47,924 nt of DNA from Bartonella clarridgeiae ATCC 51734 (GTDB lineage: Bacteria > Pseudomonadota > Alphaproteobacteria > Rhizobiales > Rhizobiaceae). The stretch is from positions 1-47,924 of the forward strand of contig NZ_JADC01000017.1 of assembly GCF_000518185.1 (NCBI RefSeq), read 5' to 3'. Positions 2-47,924 of this stretch are shown here, in pieces; position 1 is the stretch's first letter, and each line of letters begins with the position of its first letter. Position numbers and translations under genes: made by a program. The notes beneath the pieces are model-generated. The model was not told the origin of the DNA. It was given only the letters and a program-made list of their open reading frames with translations, and searched no databases.

Positions 2-94
2 GTGCTTCATGGTGATTTGTTATATAAACATAAACTTACTAAAGCAGGTTTTTCTGGTACAAGTGTTTCCGGCGGAATACGCTACCAATTTTAA
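2..94 (+). CDS. Autotransporter beta-barrel, extreme C-terminus (partial, 5' end outside window)
   Basis: The frame starting at base 2 encodes the last 30 residues of an autotransporter barrel and stops with TAA at 92-94. The ending (GDLLYKHKLTKAGFSG, then ISGG-type residues and IRYQF) matches the end of the intact autotransporter at 4956-7811, including the terminal aromatic residue recognised by the BAM machinery. This is therefore the last beta-strand region of a third related gene lying to the left. The passenger domain is not visible, so its function cannot be stated. The first 36 bases of the window are identical to the last 36 bases. Confidence 0.85.
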   Translation: MLHGDLLYKHKLTKAGFSGTSVSGGIRYQF

Positions 95-4778: not shown

Positions 4779-4840
4779 TTTACCTATCTGATAAATCTTT
4801 TGTGAGATCTTGCTTATTGTAGATTTGTTTTTATCTTTAC

Positions 4841-4882
4841 ATAAAATACAAAATGTATTAAATAAAATACAAAATGTATTAA
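4841..4882. repeat. Two tandem 21-bp units carrying AATACA-AAA-TGTATT dyads
   Basis: The 21-bp unit beginning ATAAAATACAAAATG occurs twice without a gap. Each contains a perfect 6-bp inverted repeat (AATACA, 3-nt spacer, TGTATT). The dyads are 21 bp apart, two helical turns, so bound proteins would sit on the same face. They lie 74-115 bp upstream of the autotransporter ATG at 4956. An operator role is inferred from this geometry. Confidence 0.6.
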
Positions 4883-4955
4883 ATTATATAGAATTTCTAA
4901 TTTTGAGTGGGTGCTTTTAATATTTAAATGCAGGGGAGAAAGTTTGAAATGAATT

Positions 4956-7811
4956 ATGATCAAAGTATTTAATAATTATGTGTATATCTTTACAGCAGCT
5001 ACTTTTTGTTTGTGGCAGAGTAGTGTGAAATCAGAAGCCGATCAATCATCTCAGTGTGATGAAAATGCTAAAGGTGGTTATACGTCAATTTATAAATGTA
5101 GTGAGGTTGGGAACAAAATAATTCGAGATAAGACTTTTCAGACAATAATAGCAGAGGGAAAAAATGTAGATATTAATGGGACAAATATAACGCTTGGTGG
5201 TTTAGATAGAATGCCTGAAAAAACTGGACGTAATTTATATGGTGTGAATGTATCGAAAGGAGGAAAAGTCGTTCTAACCGAATCCTATTTGAAGAATGTA
5301 CATATAGCTCTTAATGTTAGTGATGGAATAATTGGAATGTATGGTGGTGCGATTGAAGATAGCGATATGGCTGTTCAAGCATTGGGGAGGCCAACGAATG
5401 TTATTTTAGTTAATCCACAGATTAAGACGAAAGGTGGAAAAGCAAGTATTTTGACTATGGATGGTGCAAGTGTTGAGGTAAAAAACGGTGGGAGGCTTGA
5501 TTTTACAAACAGTGATGCAGTTTATACAGCTTTGACAGGGAGTGTTAATTTCGATGGTACTATTATTGTTAGAAAAGGTGGGAAAAAAGAACAAGGAAAT
5601 TATGCTGTTTTTCATATAGATCAAGGCGGTTCTGTTGATTTTAAAAATGGCAATATTAACGTTACTGGTAGTCATGGTCTATTATTGGAAAATACGGTTG
5701 CTACTTCCAATTCGATTCAATTGAGTCGAAATTTACAAAAAGACATTAAAGTAACAAAGGCGAACATCGAAAAATCAACTATCGAGGTAAAAGGAGATAA
5801 ATCCTACGGTATATATTTTAAAGGAGAGAATGTAGTAGCAACAGTCAAAGCTGATGCGGATGAAGAAAATTTAGACATGACAACAATTGAACCTGGAATA
5901 CGGCTTGTTAATTTAAAAGATACGCATCTAACGGTTTTAGATAGTCCAGCTATTTATAGTACTGATGCAGAAGGAGGTAATATTAGCTTATTACAAAGTT
6001 CTATTAGCGCTGGTCATTTATTGTTAGTGGCTAAAAAGAAATCTTCTCTGCTTGTCTTAGCTGATAATTCTTCACTTACGGGGGGTACATATGTTGATGA
6101 CAGTTCTACTGCTGAACTTTATTTAAGTGGTAATTCTGTATGGTTTTTGACACAAACCAAACAAAATTATAAAGATTTGGATTTGAACGATTTATCTATT
6201 TCAGTAGTTAGCCTTGATAATAGTTCCATTAATTTTAAAAGATTAAAGTCTAGCGAAACCTATAATTATAGAACACTTCGCATTGGTAAAGGGGAGGGTG
6301 ATGTCTATATTGCGAAGAATAATGCACAGATTCATTTAAACACAAGTTTCAGTCCTGATGGTTCGCTTGATAGTCAGAAAACTGATAGAGTTTTGATCCA
6401 TGGTAATATTTCTGGGAAAACTACAATTGATGTACGAGGTATTTCAGAAAATCGAAGGGGAAATAGGAATAATATAAATGCTAATGATGTTGGAAATACT
6501 GAGGGTATTTCCCTTATTCAGGTGTCTGGAACAGCACAACAAGATTCCTTCAAACTGAAAGGTGATTACATTACAGTAGATGATTTTCCTTATCGATATA
6601 AGCTTTCTGCTTATGGTCCAAGTTCTAATTTAGGGCCGGCGAATCTAGGACAAAAATTGGTTGGAAATAATGAGAAAGAAGAAAATGAATCTAATAAGGA
6701 TTTTTGGGATTATCGTCTTCAGAGCGAATATATTGCTGCACCTCCAGTAGAACCTATTCCTCCAGATGCTGATACTCCTTCACCACCACAACCTAAGCCA
6801 TCTGAACCTCAGCTTCCAAAGAAACCAGATTCATCTGAAAAAAAAGTGCCGGCAGTTGTACCACAACTTCCAAGTTATTTGCTTTTGCCTCATGCTTTAT
6901 TTCATGCGGATTTGACAGATATGAATAATCAACACGAATTGTTGGAAATCATGCACAATGCTATCAACAAGCCTGAGAAAAATAGAAAGCCAAGCTTTTT
7001 TATACATGGTTATGGCGGTAGTCACCGTTATGCTTCGAATTTGACCGTGTTTGAATATGGTTATGGAGCCGATCTTGATTATAATGCTATGATAACGGGT
7101 TTTGTATTAAGCACGTTAGAGCGTAAGCACAGTGCTTTGTCTTTTGGAGCTATGGGAACTTACGGTAGGCTCTCTCTTCAGCCTTGTGCTGTTGAACAAA
7201 GTCAGAAGAGTATATTTAATAAATGGTCAGGAAAGCTTTATGCTCATTTGCAGCATGATACAGGATTTTATACGAATGGATTTATGTCTTATGGTTTCTT
7301 TAAAGGTAATGTTTCGACTTTAGTTCGAGGAAAAACAGCAACATTAAAAGGTATACTTTTGAGTGCTTCTTTAATGGGAGGTCAAGCTATTTTAACGAAT
7401 TATGATGGGTTTGTTATTGAACCGCAGCTTCAGGTTATTTATCAGTCTGTCATGTTTGATAAAGCTCGTGATATTGATCAGTTTGATGTTGAGCTAGGGA
7501 ACCATGATCAATGGATTGCACGTTTTGGTGGTCGTCTTACCAAAGCTGTGACAGGGGTTGAAGAGGCACGTGTTGTTTCTTTTTATAGTAAACTTCATCT
7601 TGCGCATAATTATGGAAGTAAACGGATGGTATATTTTAAAGATGCTTTTCAGTTAGGAGCATTTGGTTCCACAGTGGAAGCAGGCATAGGTGTTCATGCT
7701 CAGTTACTTCCTAATATAATACTTCAGGGTGATTTGTTATATAAACATAAACTAACCAGAGCTGGGTTTTCTGGAGCTAGTATTTCAGGTGGATTGCGCT
7801 ATCAGTTTTAA
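4956..7811 (+). CDS. Type V autotransporter, intact
   Basis: A 951-residue outer-membrane autotransporter. Residues 1-29 form a signal peptide (hydrophobic IFTAATFCLW, Ala/Ser cleavage area). Residues 30-440 form a beta-helix-like passenger rich in Gly, Asn, Ser and Val. Residues 441-560 resemble the pertactin-type stabilising region (RIGKGEGDVYIA, TDRVLIHGNISG, ISLIQVSG). A Pro-rich linker (PPVEPIPPDADTPSPPQPKP) spans about 595-640, and the translocator barrel runs from about 680 to the terminal RYQF. The ATG at 4956 follows the purine-rich GGGGAGAAAG. Duplicated dyads at 4841-4882 suggest regulated expression. Adhesion or host interaction is the usual role in Bartonella, but no binding motif identifies a ligand. 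The barrel is nearly the same as that of the gene at 44968, while the passengers differ. Confidence 0.93.
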   Translation: MIKVFNNYVYIFTAATFCLWQSSVKSEADQSSQCDENAKGGYTSIYKCSEVGNKIIRDKTFQTIIAEGKNVDINGTNITLGGLDRMPEKTGRNLYGVNVSKGGKVVLTESYLKNVHIALNVSDGIIGMYGGAIEDSDMAVQALGRPTNVILVNPQIKTKGGKASILTMDGASVEVKNGGRLDFTNSDAVYTALTGSVNFDGTIIVRKGGKKEQGNYAVFHIDQGGSVDFKNGNINVTGSHGLLLENTVATSNSIQLSRNLQKDIKVTKANIEKSTIEVKGDKSYGIYFKGENVVATVKADADEENLDMTTIEPGIRLVNLKDTHLTVLDSPAIYSTDAEGGNISLLQSSISAGHLLLVAKKKSSLLVLADNSSLTGGTYVDDSSTAELYLSGNSVWFLTQTKQNYKDLDLNDLSISVVSLDNSSINFKRLKSSETYNYRTLRIGKGEGDVYIAKNNAQIHLNTSFSPDGSLDSQKTDRVLIHGNISGKTTIDVRGISENRRGNRNNINANDVGNTEGISLIQVSGTAQQDSFKLKGDYITVDDFPYRYKLSAYGPSSNLGPANLGQKLVGNNEKEENESNKDFWDYRLQSEYIAAPPVEPIPPDADTPSPPQPKPSEPQLPKKPDSSEKKVPAVVPQLPSYLLLPHALFHADLTDMNNQHELLEIMHNAINKPEKNRKPSFFIHGYGGSHRYASNLTVFEYGYGADLDYNAMITGFVLSTLERKHSALSFGAMGTYGRLSLQPCAVEQSQKSIFNKWSGKLYAHLQHDTGFYTNGFMSYGFFKGNVSTLVRGKTATLKGILLSASLMGGQAILTNYDGFVIEPQLQVIYQSVMFDKARDIDQFDVELGNHDQWIARFGGRLTKAVTGVEEARVVSFYSKLHLAHNYGSKRMVYFKDAFQLGAFGSTVEAGIGVHAQLLPNIILQGDLLYKHKLTRAGFSGASISGGLRYQF

Positions 7812-8319
7812 AACATAAAGATTAGCCTATTTTTATTTTTAACAACTGTTTATAGATTACGTTAAGTTTTTTAATGGAACTTATACAGATTACAGTTCTA
7901 GTTTTCAGAAACAGAGAATTTTAATCTGTATTTATGATTTCTATAGACACATAAGGTTGCTAAAAAAGAGTTCATAGTAACGTGTTTAGAAAAGTGGCTT
8001 GGCTTGTGCATTTGATTTAGAAATAAATTTTTTAAATATAGATCGCTTTCCGAGTTGTTTGCTGTAGTCTGCTATATAGCACGTTAGGCTGATTTCAGGG
8101 TAATCAGGATAAAAACTACTGATATCAGTCTAAAGAGCAGCTGTAATAATTATTTTAAAATTTAGCATTATTTATTGAAGAGTTTTAACTTATTTTTTAA
8201 TTATTTTAATAGCCAATAAAAGACTGAGTATGAAGTCAAAACTACATTATATTATGATAATAATTTGAAATATATTTATTAATATAAGCTATAATGTAAT
8301 TAGATAAACTGAGCTATAT
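7812..8319. other. Intergenic; right part resembles the upstream region of the 44968 autotransporter
   Basis: No ORF of note. From about 8165 onward the sequence can be aligned by eye with 44800-44967: both show a stretch ending AATAATTTGAAATATATTTATT or a close variant, then a TATAGCT/AAGCT-ATAATG element. It is thus a copy of an autotransporter promoter region, placed before the relic that starts near 8320. No clear terminator follows the intact gene. Confidence 0.5.
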
Positions 8320-8850
8320 TGAGTTGTTGGATATTAAATATATCATAAATTCTCTTCTTGTTTCAGTTAATGCTATTAATACGAATAATTGTAGCACAAT
8401 AGAAACAAGCGCTTTATCTCTATTTAATAAATCATGATATGAAATTTTGTAAGACGATAGCTAAATATCATCGGTAAACGATATATGATATTTATTGATG
8501 GAAGAAGTAAAATACAGAAGATATGTATTAAATGAAGGTATGGTTATTAATGCAGACAATATAATTATTGTCGGTGTTCTGTTAAGTTAATACAGATATA
8601 TCATCAGCCTAACGATTTGAAGGTAAAACAGGTGAAAGTGATTTTGAAGAGAACAAGTTTGCAGAAATCGGCAATAGGTTTTCACACTGAGATGGGTGTA
8701 ATAGAATAGTATAGAAATCAATTGAGAGTAGAAAATTGATATTTATTTTTATGGTGATAAGTCTTCTATTAATCTAACTAACCCAGAAATTATAGTATCT
8801 CATGGGAGAATAGGTTTTACGAAATGTTGAAATGTATCTATTACGATGAT
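8320..8850 (+). pseudogene. 5' relic of an autotransporter gene
   Basis: The segment GGATATTAAATATATC followed by TTCTCTTCTTGTTTC at 8326-8365 lines up with the start of the 44968 autotransporter (GGTAAATATTAAATATG, then TTCTCTTC repeats). Further on, scattered passenger-like peptides occur (EGMVINADN; FYGDKSSINLTNPEIIV near 8730-8800) among stops and frameshifts. No barrel follows: near 8850-8885 the sequence changes to ribose-binding-protein codons. This is a fragment truncated by deletion, not a gene. Confidence 0.6.
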
Positions 8851-8884
8851 AACCAGAAATATTGATTTTAAGATAGTTTTGCAG

Positions 8885-9346
8885 TTAATGTGCAAGAAGA
8901 AAAGGTTATCAAATTAGAAGGGGTTCCTAATAGAACATCTGCTGCACATGAGCGAGGACAAGGTTTTAATTAAGCAGTGTCTTCTTTAGGATTGAATATA
9001 TTGCAAAGCAACCAGCAAATTTTTATCGTATAAATGTGACTGAAAATTTGTTACAAGTGCATAAAGATGTTGATGCTGTTTGCACAAAATGATGAGATGG
9101 CTTTGCGAGCAAGTACGTGTTGTACAGGCAAGTGGACATTAATATTATAGTTGTTGGTTTTGATGATCAGATACAGATGAAGGGATAGCTACTGTAAAGT
9201 GGTGTAATTTATGAATGATTTCTCAGCAATTAAACGAAATTGGGAAATTAGGTGTGAAAACAGTAGATAAATTCATCAAAGCTGAAGCAGTAGAAAATCA
9301 TATTTCTATTCCGTTGAAATTAGTGATAAAGGATCAGGAAAACTAA
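8885..9346 (+). pseudogene. rbsB: 3' part of a ribose ABC transporter binding protein gene, decayed
   Basis: Frameshifted pieces match the C-terminal half of periplasmic ribose-binding protein: EEKVIKLEGVP, TSAAHERGQGF, VTENLLQVHKDVDAV, AQNDEMALRAS, VVGFD, then QQLNEIGKLGVKTVDKFIKAE and IPLKLVIKDQEN, ending with TAA at 9344-9346. The order and spacing agree with RbsB, whose typical sequence reads ELEGVPGT, AARERGQGF, AQNDEMALGA and VVGFDGT. The 5' half is missing; the DNA before it is autotransporter relic. The gene is followed 71 bp later by the rbsK relic, the usual neighbour in alphaproteobacterial ribose operons. Confidence 0.82.
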
Positions 9347-9417
9347 TAGGTGATTGTATGTTTATCTGTGATTAATATAGAGAGTTTTCTAGAAAAATAA
9401 TGCGAAGAAAATTTTAT

Positions 9418-10294
9418 ATGTCTACACCTTCTATTACTGTTTTTGATAGTATTACCAGTGATATGGTATGCTAAGTTTCTGATTTTCGCTTAAAGGGTGA
9501 AAGTCTTCATATGAAAATTTTTCTATGGGAGTAGAAGATAAGTGAGCCAATCAAGCTGTTGCGGTGAGTAGATTAGGTCTTGCTATAGGACTTGCTAGTT
9601 GGATTAGTAATGATACTTTGGGAATATTTACTCGCCAGCACTTTGAAAAAACTTCTTTTGATTTGAGTGGTTTGCACGTTAATCCGAATGCTATGACTGG
9701 TATTGCTTCTATTACTCTGAGTGAAAGCGGGGAGGATACAATTATTGTCGCAGGAAGATCTAATATGGCTATTAAGTTAGAAGATATTAAGAAAAGCAAT
9801 TTGTTGTTCTGAAATTTTGGTGATGCAGCTAGAAATTGGTAATAGCTGCCTAAGGTTGGGCGTGATGCGGTATTAGATCCAGTACTTTACCCGATTTTCC
9901 TCAGGAACTTTATCATTGGGTTCATATTATGACACTTATCTAATGAAAAAGAAACCGAGAGATTAACAGGTATCGGTAGATATAAAGGTAGCTCATTTAG
10001 CAACAGCAGTATTTTTAGAGCGTGGATTAGAGGTGGCTGTTATAAAAATGGGAAATAAAGAAGTCTTTTTTTACAAAGAATGAAGCTGGTTTCGTCCCTA
10101 TTTTTAGGTGGAAACGGTTGATACTGTTGCAGCTGTTGATAACTTTAATGATGGTTTGGTTGCTGGTTTAAAAAGGTATGTCTTTTGCAGAAAGTATTCA
10201 TTTAGCTGCTGCATGAGGTATTTTGGCAATTAAAAGAAGAGTATCTGATTCCACTGCATCGTAGGAAAAGGTTAATGCTTTTCTTAAAAGCTAG
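9418..10294 (+). pseudogene. rbsK: Ribokinase (PfkB family) pseudogene
   Basis: Starting from the ATG at 9418, pieces in alternating frames rebuild a full-length PfkB kinase: SITVFDSITSDMV, FRLKGESLHMKNFSMGVEDK, ANQAVAVSRLGLAIGL, DTLGIFTRQHFEK, TGIASITLSESGEDTIIVA, EKETERLTGI, LERGLEVAVIKMGNKE, VETVDTVAAVDNFNDGLVAGL, FAESIHLAAA and GILAIKR. In ribokinase the penultimate block reads VDTTGAGDAFNGGL; here the anion-hole and catalytic-base residues (GAGD) are altered as well. Several stops and frameshifts are present. The total length of about 880 bp equals a normal rbsK. One open piece (9564-9812) survives only by chance. Ribokinase would phosphorylate ribose to ribose-5-phosphate. Confidence 0.9.
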
Positions 10295-10355
10295 AACATG
10301 GTATAAATTTAATATATAAAATGAAATTTTTGTTTTCGTGCTAATAACATTAGGG

Positions 10356-39469: not shown

Positions 39470-39525
39470 GATGGGGATTTAGAGTATATAAATTCTAGAT
39501 GGGGATTTAGAGTATATAAATTCTA
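39470..39525. repeat. 28-bp exact tandem duplication upstream of bamD
   Basis: A 28-bp unit (starting GATGGGGATTTAG, ending ATAAATTCTA) occurs twice head to tail with no difference. It lies 80-136 bp before the bamD start codon and contains a TATATA stretch, so the duplication may repeat a promoter element. The region is non-coding. Confidence 0.85.
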
Positions 39526-44434: not shown

Positions 44435-44967
44435 GGTTTTCATTTTAAACAATGATTGTTATAATATTATTTTATTTCCAATAATAAAACACGTGATCAT
44501 AAGTATTATTTTTTGTTGTTATTTTGTACCCAAAAACATTATCATTATTGTTACAAAATAATCATAGGACATGAATTTTAGTACAAATTATTAAGTAAAG
44601 TACAGATCCATAAAAGAAAAAGTATAAGAAATTCTCTTAATATTGCCAATAAAATATTTCTAACAAAAATTGCACCATTTTATTTTTTATTTAAATTAGT
44701 TTCTTTGTTATTTTTTTGATTAATATTTACCGCATTCTATATTTTAAAATTCAGCTCTTAAGAGATTCTTTTTTAATTTAATATCGAGTTTAAATCTTAA
44801 TTTTGTTCATTGAGTAGTTTTTAATTGGTAAAGGTCAATACAAATATACAGTATGTAATAAAGATACTTTATGTTATAATAATAACTTGAAATGTATTTA
44901 TTGCTATTATATAGCTCATAATGTGTTTAAACGATTTTAAATATTTGAAACTTTATTGAGTTTTGTA
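44435..44967. other. Intergenic region upstream of the right-hand autotransporter
   Basis: 533 bp without an ORF. It contains a short dyad AACAATGATTGTT (44448-44460) just after ligA. A 10-bp inverted repeat, TTATTTTGTA (44519-44528) with TACAAAATAA (44552-44561), follows. From about 44800 the sequence resembles 8165-8325, so this is a conserved autotransporter promoter region. The 8-mer TACAAAAT in the inverted repeat also occurs in both 21-bp units at 4841-4882. Confidence 0.5.
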
Positions 44968-47924
44968 ATGGTAAATATTAAATATGCTGCAAGTTTTCTC
45001 TTCTTTTCTCTTCTTTTCTCTTCTCTTTTTATAGCTGATACTGTTTATCCGAAAACTAAAGTTCCTCGTAAAATAGAATCGGACGATCGTGCTTTTGTTG
45101 CAGAAATTTATAGAGACGATGGAAATATAAAGGTCCGTACAATAAAAAATATAACATGTAGTATACCTAATAAAAGTGAAGCCTTTTGTTGCAAATCCGA
45201 TCAGAAAAATTGCAATAGTTCAAAAAAGAAGAAAGAAAAAAATAACAGTAAAAACAACAATGAAGAGTTAGCTGCACTAAATGAAGGGGTAGTTGCAATA
45301 TATGCGTCGGAATTGGGCACTGTTATTGATGTGGACGATATGAAGATTTTTGGTCCAGTACAAAAGAGTGAGCAGCCTAAAGGTACTGAGCATATATATG
45401 GTGTGTGGGTAAAACAACAGGGAGCAGTTACTGTAGGTGAAGCAACCTTGAAAGACCTAACAGTAGGTCTTAATGCTGAAGCCGATAGTATAATATACAT
45501 AACATCGGGATCAATTAAAGATAGTGAGGTTGCTGTTTATTCTCATGGTAATAGAGCTTATATTGGGTTAGAGGATGTAAGCATTACAGTAGGTGATAAG
45601 GGAGTCGGTCTTTTAAATAAGGAAAATGCTTCTATTATTATGATGGGAGATGAAAACAAGGGAGACATTACTTTTACGGCAGGTAATGCAGTTTATATAG
45701 ATACAGGAGAGGTTATTTTAGAAAATATTACTATTCGTAATAATGTTAAAGGCAGTGATACTGTTAACCGTCAGCATGCTATATTTTCTTCTACTGTTCA
45801 AACTGCTATTCACATACATCCAGATAGTGTTTTTAAGATGGAGGAGGGAAATGTTACTCTAGAATATGCGCATGGTCTGGTATTTGACGTTGGAGGGTCT
45901 AGAGAAGAAAAAAAAGCTTCAGGACCAATAGAGGTTGATATTGATAGTGCAAATATTCAAGTAAATAGTGCTCAATTTTATGGCATGTATTTACATTATT
46001 CGGATAAGAAGAGCCAATCTTCTAATGGAAAATCTCCAGAAAATCACATTTCTAATGGAAATAATAGAAAATCTCTAGAAAATCACAATAGTATAGTTGT
46101 TTCTTTGAAGAAAACAAATTTTTCTGTTCCCAAAAGTGCGGTTATTTATAGTGATAAGTCTGATAATACCCATAATCTCACCTTTAAATTGTCAGAGAAT
46201 GCAACTCTTTCTGGCAATCTTTTGTTACAAGCTAATAGTGGCGTTGTAAAAGTTGAGGCTGATGGATCTAAACTGGAAGGTGGTTCTTTAATTACTAATG
46301 GAGCTATAGCAAATTTGCATTTAAAAAATCATTCGACATGGACTTTGACAAAAAGGAAACAGCAACCTTCGAAAGATTTGAGTGTTACAGATTCATCTAT
46401 TTCTACTATGATCCTTTCAGATAGTAGCATTATTTTTGAAAAGCCAACATCCAATATTTATCAAACGCTCCGTATTGGTAAAGGGAGCGGCACTGTTTAT
46501 ACAGCGCAGGGCAATGCAGAACTTTATATTAATACTTATCTAAATCAAGGAGGGGAGATTGCTCGTCAAAAGACGGATCGCCTTTTAATTCATGGAGACG
46601 TATCTGGTACTACTACAGTTCATGTTTTAGCTGTTTCAGGAAGTCCAGGAGACGAAATAGGTCGAGGTGCAAAAAATAATAACAAGGGTATTTCTATTAT
46701 TCAGGTTTCTGGAGCAGCTCAGGAAGATTCTTTTAAATTATTTAATGATTATATCACCTTGTATAATTTACCTTATCAATATCGTCTTTATGCTTATGGT
46801 CCAAGTTCTGCTTTAGGGGCGGCGGATCCAAAACAAAAATTGGTTGGAAATAATGAGGAAAGAGAAAATAGAGACAGTAAATCTAGTAAGCCTTTTTGGG
46901 ATTATCGTCTTCAGATTGAATATATTAGTTTTCTCCCTTTTTTAAAACCTATGTCATTAGACCTTGCATCATTTAAACCTCGACGTTTCCAGAAGCCAGG
47001 CTTACCTGAAAAAAGAGTGCCGGTAGTTGTGCCACAGCTTCCAAGTTATTTAGTCTTGCCTCATGCTTTATTCCATGCGAATTTGGTAGATATAAATAAT
47101 CACTATGAACTATTAGAATCTACGCACAATGGGACCAATGAAACTGGGCACAATGGAAAGGCAAACTTTTTCATACATGGTTATGGTAGTAATTATCGCT
47201 ATGCTTCAAATTTGACTGTTTTTGAATATGGTTATAGCGCTGATCTTGACTATAATGCTATGATGGCAGGTGTTGTATTAAAGACGTTAGAGAGTAAGCA
47301 TAGTGCTTTGTCTTTGGGAGCTATAGGAACTTATAGTAGCCTTTCTCTTCAGCCTTATGTTGTTGAACAAAGTCAGAAGAGTATATTTAATAAATGGTCA
47401 GGAAAGCTTTATGCTCACTTACAGTATGATACAGGCTTTTATGTGAATGGAGTTATGTCTTGTGGTTCCTTTAAAGGTGATGTTTCGACTTTGGTTCGAG
47501 GGAAAACAGCGACGTTAAGGGGTGAACTTCTGAGTTCTTCTTTAATGGGAGGTCAAGCTATTTTAACGAATTATGATGGATTTGTTGTTGAGCCACAGCT
47601 GCAAGTTATTTATCAGTCTGTGATGTTTGACAAGGCTCGTGATATTGATCGGTTTGATATTGATTTAGGAAATCATAACCAATGGATTGCAAGTATTGGT
47701 GGTCGTTTCACTAAAACTATGATGGGGTCTGAAGAAGGACGTATTGTTTCTTTTTATAGCAAATTTCATTTTGCCCATAATTATGAAAATAAACGGATAG
47801 TGCATTTTAAAGATGCTTTTCAGTTAGGAGCATTTGGTTCTACAGTGGAAGCAGGTTTAGGTGTTCATGCCCAATTGCTTTCTAAAATAGTGCTTCATGG
47901 TGATTTGTTATATAAACATAAACT
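44968..47924 (+). CDS. Type V autotransporter (partial, 3' end outside window)
   Basis: An uninterrupted frame of 985 codons from the ATG at 44968 to the window edge. The signal peptide (residues 1-23: VNIKYAASFLFFSLLFSSLF) is encoded partly by a 10-bp tandem repeat. A Lys/Asn-rich segment with four or five Cys (about 60-100) precedes a long beta-helix-like passenger. The pertactin-like stabilising region (LRIGKGSGTVYTA, TDRLLIHGDVSG, ISIIQVSG) starts at about residue 501, then a linker with few prolines (about 655-695) and the barrel from about residue 737. By comparison with 4956-7811 only about 18 residues are missing. Its Shine-Dalgarno is weak. The passenger differs strongly from the intact gene's, the barrel hardly. 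Confidence 0.92.
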   Translation, partial: MVNIKYAASFLFFSLLFSSLFIADTVYPKTKVPRKIESDDRAFVAEIYRDDGNIKVRTIKNITCSIPNKSEAFCCKSDQKNCNSSKKKKEKNNSKNNNEELAALNEGVVAIYASELGTVIDVDDMKIFGPVQKSEQPKGTEHIYGVWVKQQGAVTVGEATLKDLTVGLNAEADSIIYITSGSIKDSEVAVYSHGNRAYIGLEDVSITVGDKGVGLLNKENASIIMMGDENKGDITFTAGNAVYIDTGEVILENITIRNNVKGSDTVNRQHAIFSSTVQTAIHIHPDSVFKMEEGNVTLEYAHGLVFDVGGSREEKKASGPIEVDIDSANIQVNSAQFYGMYLHYSDKKSQSSNGKSPENHISNGNNRKSLENHNSIVVSLKKTNFSVPKSAVIYSDKSDNTHNLTFKLSENATLSGNLLLQANSGVVKVEADGSKLEGGSLITNGAIANLHLKNHSTWTLTKRKQQPSKDLSVTDSSISTMILSDSSIIFEKPTSNIYQTLRIGKGSGTVYTAQGNAELYINTYLNQGGEIARQKTDRLLIHGDVSGTTTVHVLAVSGSPGDEIGRGAKNNNKGISIIQVSGAAQEDSFKLFNDYITLYNLPYQYRLYAYGPSSALGAADPKQKLVGNNEERENRDSKSSKPFWDYRLQIEYISFLPFLKPMSLDLASFKPRRFQKPGLPEKRVPVVVPQLPSYLVLPHALFHANLVDINNHYELLESTHNGTNETGHNGKANFFIHGYGSNYRYASNLTVFEYGYSADLDYNAMMAGVVLKTLESKHSALSLGAIGTYSSLSLQPYVVEQSQKSIFNKWSGKLYAHLQYDTGFYVNGVMSCGSFKGDVSTLVRGKTATLRGELLSSSLMGGQAILTNYDGFVVEPQLQVIYQSVMFDKARDIDRFDIDLGNHNQWIASIGGRFTKTMMGSEEGRIVSFYSKFHFAHNYENKRIVHFKDAFQLGAFGSTVEAGLGVHAQLLSKIVLHGDLLYKHK
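44994..45025 (+). repeat. Short tandem repeat (10-bp unit TTCTTTTCTC) in a signal-peptide region
   Basis: Two full units at 45001-45010 and 45011-45020, with a 7-base partial unit before (TTTTCTC, 44994-45000) and a 5-base partial after. The unit is 10 bp, so each gain or loss shifts the reading frame of the autotransporter that starts at 44968. Copy number in other strains is not known. Confidence 0.8.

Follow-up and report, generated by a model that had tools for sequence, protein, structure and literature searches.

Among the closest described systems are the opa genes of Neisseria, where CTCTT repeats lie within the sequence coding for the leader peptide and a change in the number of units breaks or restores the reading frame (PMC3745409, in the portion of that paper drawn on here). 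Repeats in the 5' codons of surface genes were named in the initial annotation of this DNA as a known design in Neisseria and Haemophilus. Judged by that portion of the source, the likeness to the Bartonella locus described here is a pentamer in the leader codons of an outer-membrane protein, and the array of one other Bartonella genome (G042) is the same pentamer in another register. The leader in the window itself has a 10-mer and no CTCTT pentamer; the perfect pentamer array is that of G042. The two systems work similarly but are not homologous. The Pfam matches of the window protein and of its relative P0002 are to Autotransporter and AC_1 only, with no homology to the Opa barrel, and the window gene is a classical autotransporter, whereas Opa is a small barrel protein. 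Also unlike opa, the Bartonella unit differs by species (10, 5 or 4 nt), and there are two staggered ATGs in two of the species.

At the lic loci of Haemophilus influenzae, tetranucleotide repeats lie near the start, and there are start codons in different frames. These are LPS genes without a signal peptide, and their arrays are longer. Common to lic, as it is generally described, and the present locus are a short non-triplet 5' repeat and more than one start codon, with phases that need not be simply on or off; the portion of PMC2651432 drawn on here gives no confirmation of this arrangement at lic.

In Bartonella, badE and other mononucleotide SSR contingency loci are described early in surface genes, and a C11 tract in the gene of an autotransporter barrel protein is listed there as ON (PMC11466379, in part). 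That survey, in the same part, is one of homopolymers of at least nine bases, and its main text nowhere uses the words dinucleotide, tetranucleotide or pentanucleotide; badE belongs to the trimeric autotransporter adhesins. The BadA/Vomp surface adhesins are lost or changed by recombination or frameshift (PMC8859334 and PMC10936683, each in part). They are trimeric autotransporters, and a leader repeat of the present kind is absent from those portions of the accounts of them. A search of the open-access literature, mostly at the level of listings, found no leader repeats of 4, 5 or 10 nt in Bartonella. Bartonella persist in the blood of the host, and the contingency loci that we found published for the genus, in the parts of these sources used, are homopolymers.

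Against this background, the leader array described below is very probably a contingency (phase-variation) locus of a Bartonella classical autotransporter, as judged from comparison of sequences. The kind of locus is already known; this member is new and has an unusual turnover of the repeat unit.

The window comprises all 47,924 bases of contig C7, one of the 17 contigs that make up a genome of 1.49 Mb, and its named protein matches are to Bartonella. The features of the gene under study are as follows.

44887..44915, + strand: putative sigma-70-type promoter, TTGAAA-N17-TATAGC, proposed from its conservation, which is the evidence for it
44968..47922, + strand: autotransporter gene, 985 codons to the contig end, 3' end missing (open reading frame from ATG 44968; C4 copy)
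44968..44970, + strand: first ATG, in the passenger frame at three units, with leader MVNIKYAASFLFFSLLFSSLFIA, the end of which is predicted (frame reading)
44984..44986, + strand: second ATG, in another frame, 16 nt 3' of 44968 (frame reading)
44994..45024, + strand: tandem repeat TTTTCTCTTC x3.1, within the codons of the putative signal peptide (Tandem Repeats Finder, exact scan, codon randomisation)
46393..46788, + strand: autochaperone domain AC_1 (PF18883), residues 476-607 (Pfam)
47233..47901, + strand: autotransporter beta-domain (PF03797), residues 756-978 (Pfam)

The gene had been called an autotransporter, and it is one of the classical (type Va) kind, with matches to PF03797 (E 3.7e-15), AC_1 (E 5e-14) and TIGR01414 (E 1.3e-25). 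A second copy on contig C4 has a complete 3' end and encodes 1004 residues counted from the ATG equivalent to 44968. A simple hydropathy scan gives the window leader a typical hydrophobic core. The promoter-like element is kept in six array-bearing copies (window, C4, G042A, G042B, G036_601 and G036_555), in which TTGAAA-N17 is followed by a -10-like hexamer TATAGC, TATAGT or TATAAT. A consensus promoter scan had 5 promoter-like sites against a shuffle mean of 5.2, i.e., no excess, and the conserved TTGAAA-N17-TATAGC element was not in its list; a simple pattern for the element also matched unrelated places in C4, G036 and G041.

About three tandem copies of a 10-mer had been noted in the early codons at 44994, and Tandem Repeats Finder returns 3.1 perfect copies of TTTTCTCTTC at 44994-45024, with period 10 and 100% match. 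The unit as first written, TTCTTTTCTC, is TTTTCTCTTC in another register. An exact scan of the window (units of 4-12 nt, at least 3 copies, at least 24 nt) found this as the sole array. With up to 2 mismatches allowed, two TTTTCTCTTC units match in the own genome only at the window leader and at the second gene copy, C4:58811-58840; a reversed control of the two-unit pattern gave one match per strand. With up to 1 mismatch, the own genome (G000) is the only one of the 71 genus genomes to contain two units, and they lie at these leaders only. The array is a non-triplet tandem repeat within a reading frame, as expected of an SSR contingency locus.

The passenger part of the protein has 11 matches in 6 of the 71 genus genomes, and 6 of the 11 have leader arrays, two each in G000 (10-mer), G042 (CTTCT) and G036 (TTTC). 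In G042, another species, (CTTCT)n takes up the same leader position, with 7.6 copies at locus A and 6.6 at locus B. In G036 there are 9.25 copies of TTTC in each of two homologous autotransporter leaders, listed here.

G036:C1:556547-556582 and 601731-601766: (TTTC)9 leader arrays, in frame with the passenger

The frame lengths of these two G036 genes are unusable, both running into masked sequence. Four exact copies of CTTCT occur in 1 of 71 genus genomes (G042) and five exact copies of TTTC in 1 of 71 (G036), in each case only at these leaders; the reversed CTTCT and TTTC patterns are the same kind of repeat and thus no control. At periods 4, 5 and 10, the other five passenger matches have no array (two in G041 and one each in G036, G010 and G029, the last a weak match). 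From the array tests in the 71 genomes, it follows that the repeat unit is common to copies within a species and different between species. As a separate observation, the passenger homologue at G010:C3:392-1207 (L085), which is without an array, has an internal stop TAG and is possibly a pseudogene.

The number of units can be compared among close relatives at each of the three repeat types, with the counts in proteins P0002, P0003 and P0043 read back from protein rather than taken from DNA. P0002 is a 99.7% identical protein from a contig of 1,533,747 bp, which exceeds the total length of the own assembly and so belongs to another assembly, perhaps of the same strain. It differs from the C4 copy only at residues 44 and 113 and within the first six residues. 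From its start, at the equivalent of ATG 44984, to the first conserved Ala codon, P0002 has 60 nt and the window 50 nt, which is four 10-mer units against three, exactly one more. P0003, from Bartonella sp. JB15, matches G042 locus A without a difference over residues 5-955, and its distance is 57 nt where G042 locus A has 62 nt, or one pentamer fewer; JB15 and G042 are two records, with contigs of 1,494,018 and 1,493,693 bp, representing two isolates or two assemblies. P0043, from Bartonella sp. A1379B, shares its leader with the G036 556-kb locus except that 4 residues are missing, i.e., 12 nt or three tetramers, so that the count is 6 against 9 in G036. This difference keeps the reading frame, and it need not be recent because P0043 is 92% identical to its G036 counterpart over 422 aligned unmasked positions.

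Copy number, the comparison of which had been set as a check on phase variation, is therefore not invariant: 3 versus 4 ten-mers, 7.6 versus 6.6 pentamers and 9 versus 6 tetramers. Whole-unit differences between close relatives at the same leader position, three of the counts being protein-derived, are what an SSR contingency locus has, and they support the phase-variation reading. It had been suggested that switching at so short a repeat could be only historical. The array is short, at three units, for fast slippage, but merely historical switching is unlikely because assemblies with otherwise identical or nearly identical proteins already differ in count.

The effect of a change in count depends on two start codons. 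ATG 44984 sits between ATG 44968 and the array, and P0002 and P0003 have their listed starts at the homologous place; a TTG at 44956 shares the frame of ATG 44968. With 3 units, as in the window assembly, ATG 44968 is open and ATG 44984 closes after 16 residues. By frame arithmetic, with 4 units ATG 44984 is open and ATG 44968 closed, and with 2 or 5 units the gene is closed from both. The claim of the initial annotation that a slip of one unit turns the gene off thus holds for the frame from 44968, which is lost, but not for the gene as a whole, since one unit more opens ATG 44984 and only the third phase is closed. G042 locus A is in the same phase as the window and locus B in the other open phase, and locus A of JB15, by its protein P0003, is in the phase of G042 B. 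In each G036 leader a single ATG shares the passenger frame, which stays open throughout the unmasked sequence. By eye, the sequence downstream of this ATG resembles that of 44984, and its upstream spacing resembles that of 44968.

The two leaders differ in that the one from ATG 44968 has a lysine near its start and the one from ATG 44984 has no charge, and this difference may change export. Both the 10-mer and the pentamer encode Phe, Leu and Ser in all frames, so the hydrophobic core is kept in either open phase. Shine–Dalgarno duplex energies, calculated with what we take to be the 16S tail, are -2.2 and -2.8 kcal/mol for the window ATGs, neither of them good, and are indecisive as a way to choose between the two. 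In G042 they favor the upstream ATG (-2.2 and -3.1 versus +1.5 twice, in kcal/mol).

Two open phases raise the alternative that there is no on/off switch: the two starts would give two leader variants of one protein, and the closed phase would be rare or never selected. This would fit with the phase closed from both ATGs being found in none of the six DNA copies (window, C4, G042 A and B, and two in G036). Full-length database proteins, however, are visible only when open, and proteins without a matching leader do exist. In Bartonella sp. C271, P0048 has its listed start at about residue 52 of the G036 homologue, and P0004 fails to align over its first 30 residues. Such proteins could be closed-phase alleles, judging from how they align. 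A scan of genome contigs with the window protein gave no match, and one with P0048 gave matches only in the AR 15-3 and G70 loci. In addition, two of three phases would be closed in the G036 leaders by frame arithmetic, given their single ATG in the passenger frame. We regard the absence of an off state as unlikely.

Gene copies enter the argument because unit differences might be made by gene conversion between two copies rather than by slippage, the repeat being then a passenger of antigen shuffling. G042 has two direct copies 48.9 kb apart that are 97.4% identical (A and B), and in the own genome the C4 and C7 copies are identical over 3072 bp (44853-47924). Both loci within a species carry one repeat unit, and the count read for JB15 locus A equals that of G042 locus B. 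On the other hand, residues specific to A are retained in P0003, and the first difference between A and B comes 19 nt past the array, so a conversion tract would need to stop inside those 19 nt. Conversion also makes no new count in the first place, and homogenisation and slippage may both act. We therefore consider conversion instead of slippage to be improbable, while recombination between copies probably does homogenise the unit within a species.

The equal unit counts of C4 and C7 in the own genome may stem from the assembler having placed a single consensus in both. The ends of C7 share 36 identical bases (1-36 and 47889-47924), and the left end carries a piece of a copy of the gene.

2..94, + strand: 3' terminus of a copy of this autotransporter gene (30 codons plus stop), at the left end of the contig (differs from the C4 copy by 1 synonymous change in 95 nt)

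With G042 as the reference, C4 (54500-63000, L009) has the flank upstream of locus A connected to the flank downstream of locus B, and C7 has the opposite combination. C7 would read as a 48-kb circle closed through a hybrid copy, with C4 as the counterpart left by its deletion, from either real direct-repeat recombination or an assembly artefact. A true loss of C7 is implausible because it carries ligA-like and lpxC-like genes.

An assembly so broken, exactly at this autotransporter gene, together with counts that come from different assemblies, also raises the question of whether the copy-number differences are sequencing or assembly errors. Such errors rarely add exactly one 10-mer. Moreover, whole-unit differences recur at three repeat types, and G042 A and B differ inside one assembly, which leaves error a very improbable source of the differences.

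The repeat coding is beyond chance. With the peptide of the window leader fixed and local codon usage applied, 0 of 100,000 random codings reach the 31-nt run of period 10, the best being 28; the period was taken from the observed repeat, i.e., chosen after seeing the array. The result is 0 of 100,000 in each of four further leaders as well, where the longest randomised runs are 24 of 38 nt for G042 A, 21 of 33 for G042 B, and 33 and 31 of 37 for the two G036 leaders. Two codons that are rare here, TTC and CTC, occur within the array (local usage TTC 32 versus TTT 309, and CTC 24 of 742 Leu). In a scan of the first 200 nt of the open frame at 32 homologous loci, covering part of the homologue matches, long arrays are present at two (G042 locus A and the C4 copy), and at the remaining 30 the maximum for runs of 3 or more copies is 11 nt. 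That selection for a hydrophobic Phe/Leu/Ser leader produced the repeat by accident is hardly credible, for although the leader core is of a typical kind and T-rich coding is natural in an AT-rich genome, the codon test in all five leaders, the rare codons inside the array and the lack of long runs at those 30 loci go against it.

As a contingency locus, the array would act in the following way. Strand slippage would add or drop whole units, and the resulting change of frame would lead to a choice of two leaders or none: one phase would be read from ATG 44968, the next from ATG 44984, and the third would be closed from both. The two starts may give different amounts of surface protein, and switching presumably serves immune or host variation. 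As to its history, we see an even chance that one contingency site was kept through speciation while its repeat was replaced, giving 10-, 5- and 4-nt arrays in three species with both copies in each species sharing a unit. In two of the species, a 16-nt insertion by the start would then have given the staggered ATGs, turning a two-state switch into a three-state one (two leaders plus off). A leader switch of the Opa type whose units are longer, and which is duplicated and seemingly kept uniform within each species, would offer a distinct path to antigenic variation that is easy to type. There would also be convergence on a CTCTT-type leader repeat in an unrelated protein family, and the 10-, 5- and 4-nt arrays would be a natural series for how a slippage site persists while the repeat changes.

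A relic with a related repeat stretch had been pointed out at 8350.

8228..8420, + strand: decayed homologue, 5' region, no tandem repeat (alignment)

TTCTCTTCTT does exist there, within the start of a decayed homologous gene, but as a single stretch rather than a tandem repeat. The decayed copy of this related autotransporter spans 8228-10300, of which only the 5' part was aligned, and adjoins an intact paralogue at 4956-7811; there is a similar stretch in G042. Upstream of the autotransporter at 4956, a 21-bp unit is present in 2.3 copies with 96% match (4837-4884). Elsewhere in the window, a perfect 28-bp direct duplication lies between the lpxC-like and YfiO-like genes (39470-39525).
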